A stretch of 45,183 nt of DNA from Candidatus Saccharimonadota bacterium (GTDB taxonomy: Bacteria; Patescibacteriota; Saccharimonadia; Saccharimonadales; Saccharimonadaceae). Location of the stretch: positions 1 through 45,183 of the forward strand of contig JAFWIY010000030.1 of NCBI GenBank assembly GCA_017514675.1, read 5' to 3'. Numbering within the stretch: the first letter of the stretch is position 1; every line of letters starts with the position of its first letter. The translations under genes were made by a program, and so were the position numbers. Shown one piece after another: positions 3,694-44,757 of this stretch. Below the pieces are notes generated by a model. That model saw only the letters and a list, made by a program, of their open reading frames with translations. It searched no databases and was not told the origin of the DNA.

Positions 3694-5622
3694 ATGATTT
3701 CAAACAAAGATTTTATTCGTAATGTGGCGATTATCGCACACGTGGACCACGGCAAAACTACGCTGGTGGATGGGCTTTTGAAGCAATCGCGGACTTTTCG
3801 CGACAACCAAGCCGAAATGCAACAGACTCTAATTATGGATTCCGGCGATCAAGAACACGAGCGCGGAATCACGATTACCGCTAAACAGACCTGCGTATAT
3901 TATAATGATTATAAGATTAATATTATTGATACGCCGGGGCACGCGGATTTTTCGGGCGAGGTGGAGCGGACTCTGAATATGGCGGATGGGGTGCTTTTGG
4001 TGGTGGATGCGCAGGAAGGCCCGATGCCGCAAACGAAGTTTGTTCTGAAAAAGGCTTTGGAATTGAATTTGAAGCCAGTAGTAATTATTAATAAAATTGA
4101 TAAACCGGCGGCGAGGATTCCGGAAGTTTTAAGCGAAATAGAAAGCTTGTTTTTGGAACTTGCGACAGATGAGTCACAACTGTTTTACCCAGTATATTAC
4201 GCGATTGCGCGCGAGGGCCGGGCTGGTAAAACTCCAGAGTTAGATAATGATTTACATGTAATTTTTGAAGCGATTGTTAATGATATTCCGGCGCCATCGG
4301 TAGAGGCGGATGCCCAGTCGGCACAGCTACTGGTAGCGGCGCTGGCGGCGGATAATTATCTTGGCAAATATTGCATTGGCAAGGTCTTTCGCGACAAGCT
4401 CAAGAAAGGACAAAGCGTAAAAATCTTGCGTGCTAATGCTGTAACATTTTCTCAAGAGACCGTGTCCCGCGAGGGTCACGACCCGAGCGAAGTGAGCGAA
4501 GCCCGTAACGACGGGCCTGAGCGAACGAGGTCGAGTGAGAAAATGTTAAGCATTAAGTCTGGCAAGATTGATCAGATTTTCTCCTATCGTGGGCTATCAA
4601 AAGAAGAAGTGCCGGAAGCGATTGCTGGTGATATTGTGGCGCTGACCGGTGTCGCGGAAGCGAATATCGGCGACACAATTGCGACCGGCGACAACCCAGA
4701 GGCTTTACCCACAATTGAGCTTGAGGCGCCAACATTATCAATTTATATTGGCCCGAATACCTCGCCACTTAAAGGCCGTGAAGGCGAATTTACGACTTCA
4801 CGCCAAATCGCCGAAAGATTAGAGAGAGAACTAGAAACTAATATCGCTCTCAAAATCCAGCCAGATGGACTGGGCTATAAGGTGTCTGGGCGTGGGGAAT
4901 TACATCTTTCGGTTTTGATCGAAACGATGCGCCGCGAAGGTTACGAACTTGAAGCCGGGCGGCCAGAAGTGGTTTACCGTGAGATTGATGGCAAAAAATG
5001 CGAGCCGATTGAAGATTTGACTATAGAAGTAGCGCCGGAGTTTGTGGGTGCAGTATCGCAAGAGCTTGGCGTGCGCCATGCGGAACTAAAAACCCAAGAA
5101 ATGACCACATCTGGTACGACACGCTTTGTTTATGAGATTTCTACCGCGGCTTTAATTGGCCTTCGTAATAATCTACTCACCGCGACTAAAGGCACCGTGA
5201 TTATGTCTAGTATTCCAAGTGGCTATCGCCCAGTGGAAGTCAAGTACAAACCAGAACGAAATGGCGCGTTGGTGGCATTTGAAGATGGCGTTTCAACTTC
5301 TTATGCGCTAGATGCGGCGCAGGCTAGAGGCGTGCTGTTTATTCCGCCACAAGTGCCGGTCTATCAGGGTATGATTGTAGGGCTCTCCAATAAAAAAGAT
5401 GATTTAGATATTAATATCTGCAAAGAAAAGCAACTTACCAATATGCGTACGCATGCATCGGATGGCGCAATTCAGCTCACGCCATATACACAATTATCAC
5501 TTGAACAATGTTTGGATTTTTTGCTTGATGATGAGCTCCTCGAGGTCACGCCTAAGACTTTACGCCTACGCAAACGCCAACTCGACCCGATTAAAAGAAA
5601 AAGAGAAAACCGCTTGACTTAA
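3694..5622 (+). CDS. typA: Ribosome-associated translational GTPase TypA/BipA
   Basis: 642 residues. G1 AHVDHGKT (15-22), the ERGITI switch I, DTPGHADF (G3) and NKID (G4) define the GTPase domain. It is followed by the beta-barrel domain II, EF-G-like domains and the TypA-specific C-terminus. TypA binds the 70S ribosome in the EF-G position and acts in ribosome assembly and stress or cold adaptation. Residues ~248-287 in domain II are encoded by a GC-rich palindromic element and have no counterpart in ordinary TypA proteins: the [12 protein letters not shown] strand should run straight into KSGKIDQIF. Probably translated from a leaderless message. Confidence 0.96.
4435..4554 (-). repeat. In-frame palindromic element, subfamily III, inside typA
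   Basis: Core 4451-4535 (GC-rich, inner stem CCCGT/ACGGG with a 4-nt loop) flanked by inverted arms, AACATTTTCTCA on the left and TGAGAAAATGTT on the right. The arms extend to about 19 bp with one gap. Arms plus core span 120 bp (40 codons) and add no stop. The encoded peptide [18 protein letters not shown] is nearly identical to the insert in obgE (43516-43622). Confidence 0.9.
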
Positions 5623-6423: not shown

Positions 6424-7227
6424 ATGAGTAGTTTTTTAATTGATTCGCATTGTCACCTGCATGATCCGCAGTTCTTTTCTAAAGAGCAGGCGGAAGAGAT
6501 GCTTGTCAGGGCGCGAGAAAACGGAGTTGAGAAGATTATCTGTATTGGTACCGACCCACATGATTCGCTCGTGGCAAAAGAGTTTGCAGAAAAACATGAG
6601 AATGTTTACTGGACCTATGGCATACACCCCTCAGAAGCAACTAAAGGTTTGCAACTCGGGGCATTTCGGAGCGCGGCAGCGCGAGAGTTAGCGCCGGCCG
6701 CCCGTGGCGACGGGCCGGCCGGACGCGGCCCCGAGTGTAAAACTTTAGTTGCCGTGGGTGAGGTAGGTCTAGATTACCATTACGAGGGCTATAGCCGCGA
6801 GGCGCAGATTAAGCTGTTTGAAGAGATGCTGCAGCTAGCTAAAGATCGTAATTTGCCAGTCTCTTTTCATGTGCGCGAAGCGTTTGATGATTTTTTTGCC
6901 GTGGTGGCAAATTTTCCTAAGATTCGCGGCGTAGTGCATAGTTTCTCGGATAATAAAAAGAACTTAAAACGGATTCTAAACGAAACGGATTATTATGTAG
7001 GCGTAAATGGTATGGCGACTTACTCCACTTTGCCGACTCCACCACTAGAGAGAATTCTGCTCGAAACCGATGCGCCATTCTTGACTCCTAGACCATTTCG
7101 TGGTATAATTAATGAACCGGCCTATATTCCGGCGATAGCTACTTGGCTTGCCGAAAAATTAGGTCAAGATATCAGAATTATAGAGGAGGGAACCACCAAT
7201 AATGCAAGAAGACTCTTCAACATTTAA
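6424..7227 (+). CDS. tatD: TatD family metal-dependent hydrolase / 3'-5' exonuclease
   Basis: 267 residues. Metal-binding and active-site motifs of the TatD amidohydrolase barrel are in order: DSHCHLHD near the N-terminus, YGIHPSEA, VGEVGLDYHY, SFHVREA, VVHSFSD and LLETDAPFL. TatD proteins are divalent-metal nucleases involved in DNA repair and quality control. Residues ~72-110, between the GIHP strand and the VAVGEVGLDY strand, come from a palindromic element, so the enzyme tolerates an Ala/Arg/Gly/Pro-rich loop there. The message appears leaderless. The 3' end overlaps the start of a 57-aa gene by 26 bp, and three small genes follow in the same direction. Confidence 0.93.
   Translation: MSSFLIDSHCHLHDPQFFSKEQAEEMLVRARENGVEKIICIGTDPHDSLVAKEFAEKHENVYWTYGIHPSEATKGLQLGAFRSAAARELAPAARGDGPAGRGPECKTLVAVGEVGLDYHYEGYSREAQIKLFEEMLQLAKDRNLPVSFHVREAFDDFFAVVANFPKIRGVVHSFSDNKKNLKRILNETDYYVGVNGMATYSTLPTPPLERILLETDAPFLTPRPFRGIINEPAYIPAIATWLAEKLGQDIRIIEEGTTNNARRLFNI
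6637..6752 (-). repeat. In-frame palindromic element, subfamily I, inside tatD
   Basis: Core 6655-6735 (81 bp) begins CTCGGGG and ends CCCCGAG. Its reverse complement is nearly identical to the third mnmA copy (11970-12050). Flanking arms GCAACTAAAG / CTTTAGTTGC are perfect over 10 bp and extend imperfectly inward. The reading frame is preserved. Confidence 0.9.
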
Positions 7228-9635: not shown

Positions 9636-10877
9636 ATGATTTATCTTGATCATGCGGCGGCAACGCCAGTTTCTAGCAAAGTTTTCGAGGCGATGAAGCC
9701 GTATTTTTCTGATGAGTTTTTTAATCCATCTAGTCCGTATTTGCCGGCGAAAAAAGTTGCGGCCGAATACGAGGCTGCCAAGGGTGTAATTGCGCATGCG
9801 ATTGGGGCCAAAGGCTCGGATATCGTAATTACCGCTGGGGCGACCGAAGCGAATAATCTGGCGTTTACAGTACTAAACACGGAATTAATATTTTGCTCGG
9901 GGCCGCGTCGCTCGCGCCCGTCGCCACGGGGCGAGCGCGCTAACTCTGCGATGGGCGCGCTCCGAAATGCCCCGAGTCAAAACATTAATTCCGTTTTATA
10001 TCTTGTGACCGAGCATGATTCGGTTAGGAATGTTGCCAAACAATATGGTGGGCAGGAAATTAAGGTGCTAGCGAATGGGCTTGTGGATATGGCAGATTTG
10101 AAGAGCAAGATCACAGATGAAACAATGCTGATTTCGGTAAGCCTCGCGAATAATGAAATTGGCGTGATTCAGCCGCTGGCCGAAATTGGTGCGCTGGTGC
10201 GTGAGGTGCGGATGGATAGATTGAAACGCGACATCAAGACACCGATTTATCTACATTCGGATGCTTCGCAGGCGCTGAACTTGCTAGATATTAATGTAGC
10301 TAGGCTAGGCGTGGATTTCCTCACCTTGAACGCTGCGAAGGTTTACGGCCCGAAGGGCGTGGGGGCGCTATATGTTTCGCACGAAGTAAAATTGCAGCCC
10401 CTCACTACCGGAGGTGGGCAGGAGAGAGGATTGCGTTCCGGCACCGAAAATGTGCCGGGAGTGATTGGTTTTGCTACGGCTGTAGAGGAAGCCAAAAAGC
10501 ACCTTAGTAGCAACCGCAAAAAATACAGCGAATACCGGAAGATTTTACTGGATGAATTACAGGGGTATGAACTAATTAACAAAAAGCATACGCTTGACAA
10601 TTTTGTAGTTTTGTGCTATAATGGTATAGATGCAGAGAGATTAATCTTTCTTCTTGAAGAACAGGGAGTATATGTGGCAACTGGGGCGGCTTGTGCGGCT
10701 TCTAAGGGCGAAAAATCGCACGTTCTAAAAGCGATTGGGCTTTCCGATACGCAAATTGCCGGGTCGCTGAGGATTACTTTTGGTGAAACCAACACGCCAG
10801 AGCAAATTCACGAAGCCGCACGAATCATCAATGCTGCCGTTCAGTTAGAACGAGAAAGAATTGGAAATGATGACTAA
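9636..10877 (+). CDS. nifS: Cysteine desulfurase (NifS/IscS family)
   Basis: 413 residues. PLP-dependent class V aminotransferase fold: YLDHAAATP at the start, GATEANNLAF, HSDASQAL, the PLP lysine Lys235 in NAAKVYGPKG, RSGTENVPG and the catalytic Cys353 in TGAACAASKG. It takes sulfur from cysteine and, given mnmA directly downstream, supplies it for tRNA 2-thiouridine. The residue before the PLP lysine is Ala where most relatives have His (usual SAHK; here NAAK). Residues ~82-120 are encoded by a palindromic element inserted before the LVTEHDSV strand. Stop overlaps the start of mnmA. IscS is an equally acceptable name. Confidence 0.94.
   Translation: MIYLDHAAATPVSSKVFEAMKPYFSDEFFNPSSPYLPAKKVAAEYEAAKGVIAHAIGAKGSDIVITAGATEANNLAFTVLNTELIFCSGPRRSRPSPRGERANSAMGALRNAPSQNINSVLYLVTEHDSVRNVAKQYGGQEIKVLANGLVDMADLKSKITDETMLISVSLANNEIGVIQPLAEIGALVREVRMDRLKRDIKTPIYLHSDASQALNLLDINVARLGVDFLTLNAAKVYGPKGVGALYVSHEVKLQPLTTGGGQERGLRSGTENVPGVIGFATAVEEAKKHLSSNRKKYSEYRKILLDELQGYELINKKHTLDNFVVLCYNGIDAERLIFLLEEQGVYVATGAACAASKGEKSHVLKAIGLSDTQIAGSLRITFGETNTPEQIHEAARIINAAVQLERERIGNDD
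9879..9994 (+). repeat. In-frame palindromic element, subfamily I, inside nifS
   Basis: Core 9896-9976 (81 bp), CTCGGGG...CCCCGAG. Arms ACGGAATTAATATTTTG and CAAAACATTAATTCCGT are inverted repeats with one mismatch over 17 bp. Inner stem built on CCCGT-CGCC-ACGGG. Frame preserved. Confidence 0.92.
10594..10622 (+). promoter_or_regulatory. Perfect consensus promoter inside nifS, probably for mnmA
   Basis: TTGACA (10594-10599), 17-bp spacer and TATAAT (10617-10622) with TGTGC before it: both hexamers fully consensus plus extended -10. It lies ~245 bp upstream of mnmA within codons for DNFVVLCYNG. Confidence 0.75.
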
Positions 10878-12225
10878 AACAATGCCTCTCGGGGACGGGT
10901 CGCTCGCGCCCGTCGTTACGGGGCTCGCGCCCTCATCCTCGGTCGTAACCTCCGGAAGCCCCTCAAGGCATCGTTTTCAGTCATCCGCCCCTACCGTTTT
11001 CGTCGGAATGAGTGGCGGCGTGGATTCTAGTGTGGCTGCGATGTTGCTGGTTGAGCAAGGTTACGATGTAACCGGCGTGTACATGAAAAATTGGTCGCAG
11101 GATCTACCGGGCATGAAATGCCCGTGGGCGGATGATCTCGCCGATGCCAAACGCGTGGCGGTGAAGCTCGGCATTCCGTTTGAAGTGTGGGATTTTGAAA
11201 AGGAATACCGCGAGAAGGTAGTGGAATATATGCTGGCCGAGTTTAAAAAGGGCAACACGCCAAACCCGGACATTATGTGCAACCAAGAAATCAAGTTTAA
11301 ACTGTTTTTTGAAAAAGCGATGGAGCGCGGGGCGGACTTTATCGCCACTGGGCACTATGCAAGAACTGGGGTGACAGATGATTTTTGCCGAGGGGGATCC
11401 GGAGCCTGGCAAGGCGAGGACGAGCGCCAAAACCCCTGTGGCGACAGGGGTTTTGGACGCGCCCCCGAGCAAAAATTATCTGACAGGACCCCAGTTCTAG
11501 TACGCGCCGTGGATGAAAATAAAGACCAGACCTATTTTCTTTATCGCATTTCTGATGAGGCGCTGGCAAGAACACTATTTCCGATTGGTGATATGCTAAA
11601 GCCCGAAGTAAAGAAGCTGGCCGAAGAAAAAGGCCTACACAATGCCTACAAAAAGGAGTCAATGGGGGTGTGTTTTGTGGGCGAGGTAGGGATGAAAGAT
11701 TTTTTGAAGGAGTATATTGATACGAAGCCGGGCGAGATTCGCCGCGTGGAAGATGACAAGGTATTGGGCGTACACGAGGGCGCGGTGTTTTATACGATTG
11801 GCCAGCGGCATGGGTTATATCTAGATGGCGAAAAAGGCACCGTAAATGATGGTTTGCCGTATTATGTCGTAAAGAAGGATATCGCAAAGAACATTGTTTA
11901 TGTATCAAAGAACTTGAATGATGGCAATCTGTGGGTGGATGAACTGGAATTGAAAGAACTTTTATTCCGCTCGGGGCCGCGTCCGGCCGGCCCGTCGCCA
12001 CGGGCGGCCGGCGCTAATTCTCGCGCTGCCGCGCTCCGAAATGCCCCGAGCCAGAATAAAAGTTCTTCTATTCAAGTTCGCCTTCGCCACCGAGCGCCGC
12101 TAATTCCGGCTGAGTTTGATGGCAAGAAGCTGAAATTTGCAAGCAAAATCAAACGTCCAGCTAGCGGGCAATCAGCGGTGATTTACGCTGGAGAAATCTG
12201 TCTCGGTGGTGGGTTTATTGCATAA
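10867..12225 (+). CDS. mnmA: tRNA-specific 2-thiouridylase MnmA with three palindromic insertions
   Basis: About 452 residues against ~360 for typical MnmA. Core motifs are intact: the PP-loop GMSGGVDSSVAA, TPNPDIMCNQEIKF (first catalytic Cys), FIATGHYAR, NKDQTYFLYR, and ESMGVCFVGE (second Cys, persulfide relay), then the beta-barrel tRNA-binding C-terminus ending in CLGGGFIA. It thiolates U34 of tRNA Lys, Glu and Gln with sulfur from the upstream NifS. Inserts occupy residues ~1-40, ~166-211 and ~359-405. The likely starts (ATG 10867 or 10870) overlap the nifS stop and lie before the first insert. Without that insert the N-terminus would be the usual short lead into TVFVGMSGG. A bidirectional terminator follows. 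Confidence 0.94.
   Translation: MMTKTMPLGDGSLAPVVTGLAPSSSVVTSGSPSRHRFQSSAPTVFVGMSGGVDSSVAAMLLVEQGYDVTGVYMKNWSQDLPGMKCPWADDLADAKRVAVKLGIPFEVWDFEKEYREKVVEYMLAEFKKGNTPNPDIMCNQEIKFKLFFEKAMERGADFIATGHYARTGVTDDFCRGGSGAWQGEDERQNPCGDRGFGRAPEQKLSDRTPVLVRAVDENKDQTYFLYRISDEALARTLFPIGDMLKPEVKKLAEEKGLHNAYKKESMGVCFVGEVGMKDFLKEYIDTKPGEIRRVEDDKVLGVHEGAVFYTIGQRHGLYLDGEKGTVNDGLPYYVVKKDIAKNIVYVSKNLNDGNLWVDELELKELLFRSGPRPAGPSPRAAGANSRAAALRNAPSQNKSSSIQVRLRHRAPLIPAEFDGKKLKFASKIKRPASGQSAVIYAGEICLGGGFIA
10869..10985 (+). repeat. In-frame palindromic element, subfamily II, at the mnmA N-terminus
   Basis: Core ~10888-10964. Arms GATGACTAAAACAATGCCT (left) and AGGCATCGTTTTCAGTCATC (right) form an inverted repeat with one mismatch and one extra base. 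The left arm includes the overlap of the nifS stop and mnmA start. Very similar to the intergenic copy at 36467-36584. Confidence 0.9.
11363..11497 (-). repeat. In-frame palindromic element, subfamily II, inside mnmA (second)
   Basis: Core ~11387-11470 with an enlarged inner stem (CCAAAACCCCTGT / ACAGGGGTTTTGG). Arms GAACTGGGGTGACAGATGAT / ATTATCTGACAGGACCCCAG pair over about 24 bp with two mismatches and a 3-nt bulge. Sits between the GHYAR and VLVRAVDENKDQ segments. Confidence 0.88.
11941..12079 (+). repeat. In-frame palindromic element, subfamily I, inside mnmA (third)
   Basis: Core 11970-12050 (81 bp). Arms AAGAACTTTTATTC / GAATAAAAGTTCTT are perfect over 14 bp and continue outward to GAAC/GTTC imperfectly. 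Nearly identical to the tatD copy in the opposite orientation. Confidence 0.9.
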
Positions 12226-36466: not shown

Positions 36467-36584
36467 AAGCAACAGAACAACACCTTTCGGGGACGGGTCG
36501 CTCGCGCCCGTCGTTACGGGGCTCGCGCCCTTAATCCTCGGTCGTAACCTCCGGACACCCCTCAAGATGTTGTTTCTGTTGCTT
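36467..36584 (+). repeat. Palindromic element, subfamily II, between rluB and ftsA
   Basis: Core ~36487-36563, almost the same as the mnmA N-terminal copy. Arms AAGCAACAGAACAACACCTT / AAGATGTTGTTTCTGTTGCTT pair over 20 bp with one mismatch and one extra base. The right arm encodes the last residues and stop of the rluB-type gene; the left arm reaches the ftsA promoter. Confidence 0.9.
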
Positions 36585-37717: not shown

Positions 37718-39084
37718 TGTTGTTCTCCGTTTAAGTTATTATTAATATTTTGGTTAACGATTTGAGGTTGCGGCGCCGGCGGTCCGGGTGGTGCAGCGGG
37801 TGGCGCGGGAGCTACTGGTGCTGGTTGGGGCGTGGGAGCTACTGGTGCTGGTTGGGGCGTGGGAGCTGGCTGCTGGGCCGCCATCATCATTTTTTGCGCT
37901 TCTAGATTGCGCACCATAATCATACGCTTTTCGTATTCTTCGGGCGTGAGGCGCGGCAGGGAAACATAGAAAGTAGAACCCTCGCCAAAGGCCGACTCGG
38001 CCCAAACTTTGCCGCCCATCGCTTCTACGCGTTGTTTGACCAGATATAAACCTAGACCGGTACCACCAATGGTGCGGGTGTCGGAATTGTCGGCGCGGTA
38101 AAATTTCTGGAAGATATGGCCAATGTCGTCTGCGGAAATACCGATGCCGGTGTCGGTAACATTAATTAGAACACGGTCGCCATCGCCACGCACATTGACA
38201 TAAACCGAACCGCCTTCTGGCGTGTATTTGATGGCGTTGCCGATGATATTATCCATAATTTCGCGCATAAAATTTAGATCAACGAAACTATATACTACCT
38301 GCTCTACATGGAGGTTGTTGCCGAATGTATTGCTATCGGCAGTACCAAAGGTAAGTTTAATCTTGGATTCTTTGGCCTCCATAGCATGGTCGCCAACCAG
38401 GGCGCGGACCACGCTAACCATCTCGGCCGGCTCGAAGTGAGGTTTGATTTTGCCGTCATCGAGCTTGGTGACATCGAGGAGGTCTTGGAAAAGCTTGCCG
38501 AGGTGCTTGGAAGCAGCCTGAGCAGCGGTAAGATAGCCACGAGCGCGCTCGTCAATAGAAGCGGTCTGAGGATTTAGTGCGAGCGAAAGATAACCATCAA
38601 TAGTAGCAACCGGGGTGCGCATTTCGTGCGAAGCAGTAGAGATGAATTCGGCTTGCTCGCCCTCTTCTTCTAGCTCTTTAGTGATGTTTCGCATCGTGAT
38701 GATGCGGTTTTGCTGCATGTCGTCTGTAATTAGAACTGAAATGGCCACAGGAATACGCTTGCCGGATTGCAAAGGTATAAGACTGGCATGGTGGGACTCT
38801 AGGGGCTGGCTAGTCTTCATGGCCTGAATGAGGGGGTTTTCGTTTTCGGCAAGCTCGCGGCCCTCTTTGGACTCCAGCTTAATAACTAAGCCATAATCAA
38901 GACCGATGGCGCTACCGGCAGAACCGCATTCGGTCATAGTAATGGCGGCTGGATTAATAAATTCAATCACGCCGGCGCGATTAGTCATAATAACACCATC
39001 ATGAATAGCCTTCAGGGCAACTTCAGCAAAGCCGCTCCTACTAGCGGCTGATTTGCTTGGATTTTTGGACTTAAAAAGACTCAT
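37714..39084 (-). CDS. Soluble PAS-domain sensor histidine kinase with proline-rich tail
   Basis: 456 residues, no membrane segment, so it senses a cytoplasmic signal. PAS domain ~17-135 (ALKAIHDGVIMTNRAGVIEF, NITKELEEE), HisKA with phospho-acceptor His153 in ASHEMRTPVATIDGYLSLAL, and HATPase_c ~225-380 with N-box DNIIGNAIKYTPEGG, G1 DTGIGI and GGTGLGLYLV. A tail (~395-456) of PAP/TPQPAPVA repeats ends Asn-rich. Partner is the overlapping response regulator. TAAAAT lies ~8 nt before the start on this strand, compatible with leaderless translation, back-to-back with the promoter of the 39133 gene. Confidence 0.93.
   Translation of the reverse strand: MSLFKSKNPSKSAASRSGFAEVALKAIHDGVIMTNRAGVIEFINPAAITMTECGSAGSAIGLDYGLVIKLESKEGRELAENENPLIQAMKTSQPLESHHASLIPLQSGKRIPVAISVLITDDMQQNRIITMRNITKELEEEGEQAEFISTASHEMRTPVATIDGYLSLALNPQTASIDERARGYLTAAQAASKHLGKLFQDLLDVTKLDDGKIKPHFEPAEMVSVVRALVGDHAMEAKESKIKLTFGTADSNTFGNNLHVEQVVYSFVDLNFMREIMDNIIGNAIKYTPEGGSVYVNVRGDGDRVLINVTDTGIGISADDIGHIFQKFYRADNSDTRTIGGTGLGLYLVKQRVEAMGGKVWAESAFGEGSTFYVSLPRLTPEEYEKRMIMVRNLEAQKMMMAAQQPAPTPQPAPVAPTPQPAPVAPAPPAAPPGPPAPQPQIVNQNINNNLNGEQQ
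37807..37860 (-). repeat. 27-bp tandem duplication in the kinase tail
   Basis: Two exact copies of a 27-bp unit (37807-37833, 37834-37860) and the start of a third encode the PTPQPAPVA repeats of the histidine-kinase tail. Confidence 0.9.

Positions 39085-43245: not shown

Positions 43246-44757
<1,512 letters not shown>

Follow-up and report, generated by a model that had tools for sequence, protein, structure and literature searches.

Nine copies of a structured insert

The window, i.e. the whole stretch of 45,183 nucleotides analyzed here (contig JAFWIY010000030.1 of GenBank assembly GCA_017514675.1, Candidatus Saccharimonadota bacterium), comes from a genome of 632 kb and contains nine copies of a GC-rich core. 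These copies occur in both orientations and eight of the nine are located inside genes or at gene edges (Table 1). Each of them consists of a three-way-junction core of about 80 nt enclosed by copy-specific inverted arms of 14–25 bp. Gene names are backed by NCBIfam and comprise TypA, a TatD-family nuclease, a NifS-like cysteine desulfurase, MnmA, ObgE and an RsuA-type pseudouridine synthase. In all coding copies (typA, tatD, nifS, mnmA and obgE) the reading frame stays open across the insert. The core of the nifS copy folds into a three-way junction with the minus strand as the better-folding one. An earlier note on this DNA had listed inverted repeats around five cores; these repeats are real, but the arms also hold mismatches and bulges and the copies number nine rather than five. 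A separate repeat is found at positions 37789-37869, where a histidine kinase-like gene contains, towards its 3' end, three tandem copies of a 27-nt unit that encode a proline/alanine-rich tail.

Table 1. Positions of the inserts and their parts in the window.
Feature	Position	Strand	Evidence and arms
typA copy, divergent core type	4442..4548	-	arms 4442-4461 / 4529-4548; I10; R1 23.3 bits
tatD copy	6637..6752	-	arms 6637-6653 / 6736-6752; I16; R1 99.3 bits
nifS copy, left arm	9876..9895	+	inverted repeat I9, 20 nt, 90% complementary; 0/20000 shuffles
nifS copy, core	9896..9977	+	covariance model R1 match 83.0 bits; fold
nifS copy, right arm	9978..9997	+	inverted repeat I9, pairs with 9876-9895
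mnmA1 copy, nifS/mnmA junction	10869..10985	+	arms 10869-10886 / 10967-10985; fold; R1 70.6 bits
mnmA site 2 copy (mnmA2)	11372..11485	-	arms 11372-11395 / 11462-11485; I7; R1 82.5 bits
mnmA site 3 copy (mnmA3)	11954..12067	+	arms 11954-11967 / 12054-12067; I21, 14/14 complementary; R1 100.3 bits
pilM-rluB intergenic copy	36467..36584	+	arms 36467-36484 / 36566-36584; fold; R1 67.1 bits; site empty in relatives
obgE copy a (antisense), divergent core type	43516..43622	+	arms 43516-43535 / 43603-43622; I11; R1 25 bits
obgE copy b (antisense)	44319..44420	+	arms 44319-44334 / 44407-44420; fold; R1 75.8 bits

Core structure and distribution

The core is described by the covariance model R1, which comprises a foot (P1), a long stem (P2) and a short stem (P3). 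Compensatory pairs account for the sequence changes in the P2 stem, whose loop is near-constant; an invariant G-T-C is located near the P2 foot. Among 16 copies 19 of the 31 core pairs have changed on both sides while 91% of the cells still pair, a result obtained in none of 500 shuffles. In L130, L048 and L140 the element at mnmA site 3 carries further inserts nested in the P2 hairpin of the core.

All comparisons were made on genome assemblies, mostly MAGs. By search with R1 the family is present in 154 of the 174 genomes of the ‘Ca. Nanosyncoccus’ group of Saccharibacteria, a figure in which divergent cores (the typA copy and obgE copy a) are under-counted since the model was built from cores of types A and B. 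In a sample of the order the carriers beyond the genus ‘Ca. Nanosyncoccus’ were two other genera of the same family. Relatives found with the TypA protein of the window are Saccharibacteria including ‘Candidatus Nanosyncoccus alces’, and the top matches are mostly from the ruminant gut. RAYT transposase and reverse transcriptase were considered as movers across the genus and rejected, because the presence of neither tracks the element.

At the gathering threshold, a search of the whole window against Rfam returned a single tRNA and left the core without a match to any RNA family or self-splicing intron, and no match appeared around the nifS-mnmA copies with E values up to 5. The exact core string had no match in viral contigs. 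In the literature searched on palindromic repeats in Saccharibacteria and on Nanosyncoccus no account of these elements was found.

The arms are paired and specific to each copy

In 72 elements of the genus the median number of matching positions between the left and right arms of one element is 13 of 18; with arms swapped between elements it is 8 of 18. Pairing amounts to about 90% in the ~17 nt next to the core and declines farther out. In a gapless arm test of the window copies, five of seven had an observed value that 0 to 26 of 20,000 shuffles reached (none for nifS). Scores were weaker for the intergenic copy (144 of 20,000) and mnmA1 (737 of 20,000) owing to a bulge in their arms; when folded, both form long stems, about 15–20 bp in length, with single bulges or mismatches.

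It had been claimed that the arms are unique to each copy, and this is largely the case. Inverted arms are found at all nine copies and are unrelated even between near-identical cores: those of tatD and mnmA3 are 97% alike over 86 nt, their arms unrelated. Among 46 pairs from different sites with cores at least 93% alike the arm similarity was 0.55 and 0.61, compared with 0.51 for all different-site pairs. The uniqueness is not complete, however, since a P1 motif with GGGGTCCTGTC facing GCCACCCC recurs some 14–20 nt from the core at the different sites L004, L045:5257, L107, L114 and L140 and at 11361-11500 of the window, and mnmA2 and L004 have GGGGTCCTGTCAGATA in common. Constant terminal inverted repeats as in a MITE are absent, the outer arms being unrelated between copies, and so are common recombination sites as for a site-specific DNA invertase, the arms being different between copies.

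Empty sites and the source of the arms

Many relatives have short empty loops at the positions of the inserts, namely LAFT-APTSK-VLYL in NifS, GHYAR-TKDGQ-LMRAV in MnmA and MRGETIKSAK in TypA (the site of window copy 4442..4548). Whether empty sites already hold both arms, a check proposed in the earlier note, was examined in these relatives, and no palindrome of arm length was found in the empty nifS, mnmA, typA and tatD sites of many of them.

The same note had suggested that one side of the target was copied in inverted orientation to the other side. This can be recognized at MnmA site 3, where six species (the window, L121, L048, L105, L054 and L130) have a left arm that encodes K-[DE]-x-x-x-R as in species with an empty site, and in each of them the right arm mirrors the left one. 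For the window copy, the site alignment shows conserved coding sequence in the left arm (11954-11967), which the right arm (12054-12067) mirrors perfectly. Similarly, the left arm of L046 aligns without gaps with the empty L049 and the mirror arm is extra sequence; in this pair, which does not represent a recent insertion, no direct target-site duplication was seen. At most sites, by contrast, neither arm resembles the empty site: the similarity of the arm zones is about 0.40 (better arm) and 0.29 (worse arm), and that of the outer flank 0.77, in a per-site comparison that is dominated by variable loops. At the intergenic site both arms are additional sequence when compared with the empty relative. 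For two extra loci the empty sites were taken from the more distant relatives G172 and G135. Judged from these alignments, copying of one flank appears demonstrated at one site family (MnmA site 3) and is not general. Sister pairs chosen by typA identity yielded deletions, inversions and common filled sites; a new insertion facing a near-identical empty sister was not among them.

The same loops also house a second in-frame palindromic family with EFSSTSYTGTPAEPSLRDEPVGSVRNIRVENSN-like peptides, present in L107, L142 and L106 (mnmA site 3) and in L049 and L053 (tatD).

Coevolution of the arms

Between species the arms diverge rapidly while they stay complementary. In the MnmA site-3 group 97.6% of the arm cells pair and 9 of 14 pairs have changed on both sides (0 of 500 shuffles); if the partner is slid by one to three columns, pairing falls to 43–65%. 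Genomes G100 and G159 are 94% identical over 1.8 kb, and at one locus the inner arms read ..AAAGTACTC.. in one and ..AAAACACGC.. in the other, each with a matching partner, several adjacent positions having been replaced on both sides. Thus compensatory changes, for which the earlier note had proposed to look, were found in the MnmA site-3 group and independent drift of the arms was not seen. Covariation alone is no proof of RNA selection, because homogenization of arms by template switching yields covariation too.

Inversion, exchange and loss of cores

Core and arms have been reversed in place as a unit at five of eight sites compared between sister species, a feature that the earlier note had not mentioned. 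These are the obgE site (L158/L160 versus L159/L157, i.e. G100 and G085 versus G159 and G161), L166/L167 (an intergenic copy), L168/L169, L173/L174 and L177 versus L279/L282, whereas orientation was kept at three sites (L175/L176; L091/L093; L178/L269/L271). Asymmetric bulges of the arms travel with the core on inversion, and therefore the switch points lie at or outside the outermost arm. Short-read misassembly is presumably an unlikely source of these inversions, because the whole element is shorter than about 150 nt.

The core itself can be replaced or lost. In G085 an unrelated element of about 40 nt is found inside arms that elsewhere enclose the main core, and in G160 a core is gone and a 13-bp perfect palindrome is left from the arms. 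Compared with G182 (97% similar), the tatD element of G160 has also lost 78 nt in frame with one arm left, which represents a deletion and not an insertion. Swapped or missing cores within the same arms mean that cores are exchangeable in persistent arms.

Three further observations can be added. The ~40-nt element has the sequence GGACCATAAGCTTGGCCGAACGGCCTTGAGTGTGTCC and is located at L270 (G085) and L280/L281 (G100/G159), where sister species have the main element between these arms. In G185 two elements 1.4 kb apart (L165/L183 versus L182 and L171) bound a segment that is absent from the sisters G148 and G140; there one element has been retained, possibly after recombination between copies. 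Finally, a 7.4-kb contig of the window's own assembly (G000:C26; L007, L011) carries a second, diverged nifS with 60% identity together with further elements and is possibly a contaminant.

Proposed template switching across the folded core

We consider it rather probable that the arms are made and rewritten, and the elements flipped, by replication template switching across the folded core of a small palindromic insert. The insert would be mobile or formerly mobile, with the three-way-junction core (P1 foot, P2 and P3) capping a long stem of which the arms form the outer part. A nascent strand may switch between the inverted arms and copy one arm or flank into the other; if it sometimes copies through the core, the whole element would flip. 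Presumably the structured core promotes switching in that it brings the two arms close to each other; new core copies would arrive by a further route. Among single accounts this is the best one, as one process would cover the arms, their coevolution and the inversions. Snap-back or template-switch synthesis had already been put forward in the earlier note and gains support from the palindrome-free empty sites, the mirror arm at MnmA site 3 and the inversion about the arms in sister species.

There is precedent for such events. Template switching homogenizes the arms of inverted repeats and inverts their spacers in coding genes of yeast (PMC8604942), in one case with growth of a 5-bp arm to 16 bp together with an inversion (PMC8604942), and both the origin and the maintenance of stems in RNA genes have been attributed to it (PMC8794818). 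The published spacer inversions concern spacers of 2–5 bp (PMC8604942), and the spacer of about 80 nt in our elements, though folded, counts against this account. The same applies to the scarcity of sites with one copied flank and to the absence of any fresh insertion among the sister pairs. Moreover, template switching alone explains neither the strand bias described below nor the arrival of new copies.

With respect to this arrival we tentatively suggest, as a rather doubtful extension, that the core may spread by fold-back priming with the three-way junction as a built-in primer hairpin. The 3' end of the core, once joined to the target, would copy the adjacent flank, and the second arm would be an inverted copy of the target at each insertion; the same fold would then drive flipping. 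If true, this would represent a mode of transposition with neither terminal repeats nor direct duplications.

Strand bias and alternative explanations

The two strands of the element are not equivalent. For 119 of 124 copies by RNA energies, and for 120 of 124 by DNA energies, the better fold is that of the reverse complement of the model strand. On the model strand arm mismatches are A.C rather than G.T (149 versus 56), a skew that exceeds the composition prediction (0.140 to 0.114), and as the set of 124 elements includes orthologous sites the count by site cluster (18:5, p = 0.011) is the safer figure. The excess tracks the strand of the element even where this strand is antisense to the gene. 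The bias suggests a factor linked to one strand of the element itself, e.g. a single-stranded DNA or RNA form.

Such a form is central to the strongest alternative, in which the fold on the better-folding strand is the substrate of an enzyme (a single-strand transposase or a structure-specific recombinase). Selection on that strand of the element would then keep the arms paired, and inversion would reflect excision and reinsertion or enzymatic flipping. We regard this as rather unlikely. It would account for the preferential folding and the wobble-biased mismatches of one strand and is consistent with the strong covariation in P1, P2 and P3, with the fairly sharp end of the ~17-bp arms and with the inversion of elements as a unit, arms included. 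However, a Y1 transposase is encoded in only 8 of the 174 genomes and in none of the window genome's contigs, reverse transcriptase is found in 98 of 174 and is missing from several element-rich genomes such as G004 and G061, and the arms of most sites have no recognition sequence in common.

It is improbable that the arms are part of the mobile unit itself, moving along with the core and diverging thereafter. The string common to mnmA2 and L004 (GGGGTCCTGTCAGATA) and the P1 motif at several sites would fit, as would sites such as the intergenic one, where neither arm has a counterpart in the empty site. Nevertheless, different-site copies with cores at least 93% alike are hardly more similar in their arms than other pairs, and one of the arms at MnmA site 3 consists of target sequence.

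Still less probable is selection on the host mRNA that keeps the arms paired and the insert looped out, bypassed or processed. The arms do covary, and the inserts are located in essential genes where the message would form a strong hairpin. On the other hand, frames are open through all coding copies, the orientation relative to the gene is mixed (42 versus 26) and flips, and on the coding strand G.T and A.C mismatches are balanced (59 versus 73, p = 0.26) with the excess residing on the element strand. Such a balance on the coding strand speaks against selection acting on the host mRNA, and the extrusion of the element from the message that the earlier note had envisaged was not borne out. 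Equally remote is the insertion of cores into hairpins that pre-existed in the target, also raised there: the same arms host other cores or none (the small element of G085, the core-less site of G160) and the empty L145 site contains a short pre-existing repeat (CGAACC/GGTTCG), but empty nifS, mnmA, typA and tatD sites of many relatives are not palindromic over arm length.

Comparison with known systems and significance

The elements can be compared with several known systems. In chloroplast DNA hairpin-associated small inversions are found in which the loop between short inverted repeats inverts. Loop inversion is a shared feature, but there single loci are concerned and here copies of one repeated element. 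The ends of Rickettsia palindromic elements (RPE) follow a constant consensus. Compared by description, RPE resemble our family as palindromes of about 100–150 bp inserted in frame into numerous unrelated genes of a host with reduced genome (PMC10969869), but here the arms are copy-specific, the core is a three-way junction and it flips.

Inverted repeats ascribed to template switching (PMC8604942, PMC8794818) have in common with our elements complementary arms, multi-base compensatory changes, inversion between the arms and a location in coding genes. They differ in that here one structured core is repeated across a genus, the spacer has about 80 nt instead of a few bases, the arms measure 14–25 bp and inversion occurred at most of the sister-species sites examined. 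GTAG/CGTC-tagged REPs are likewise small palindromes, some of them in coding regions, with a CGTC class that has no dedicated transposase (PMC3733652); CGTC-tagged palindromes without transposase are known in several phyla (PMC3733652). The invariant G-T-C near the P2 foot of our core can be noted as a likeness to REPs (PMC3733652). In contrast to the REP/RAYT system (PMC3733652) the three-way junction here is larger and RAYT (Y1_Tnp) is absent from nearly all carrier genomes, and the REP stems of 8–9 bp starting with A-T pairs and the CCA tail (PMC3733652) are absent as well. A GTAG or CGTC tag beside an 8–9 bp stem is not present in the core, read by eye against the published description (PMC3733652). 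The repetitive hairpin-forming elements of sponge mitochondria (PMC2800124) are also repeated hairpin inserts of unsettled mobility; there they are intergenic, here in frame within genes, and copy-specific arms are not reported in the passages compared.

Copy-specific arms and flipping set the family apart from RPE and from CGTC palindromes, and the tolerance inside proteins is alike, by description. If the reading by template switching is right, these elements would be natural recorders of this process, with at least ~25 marked hairpins in some genomes, located in frame in essential genes. Between sister species a few codons would have been rewritten and an insert of about 27 codons reversed. 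Covariation of stems, which is often taken as proof of a selected RNA, could then also come from mutation. Under the same condition, the frequency and the strand of hairpin-templated synthesis would become measurable in an ultra-small, host-dependent bacterium.
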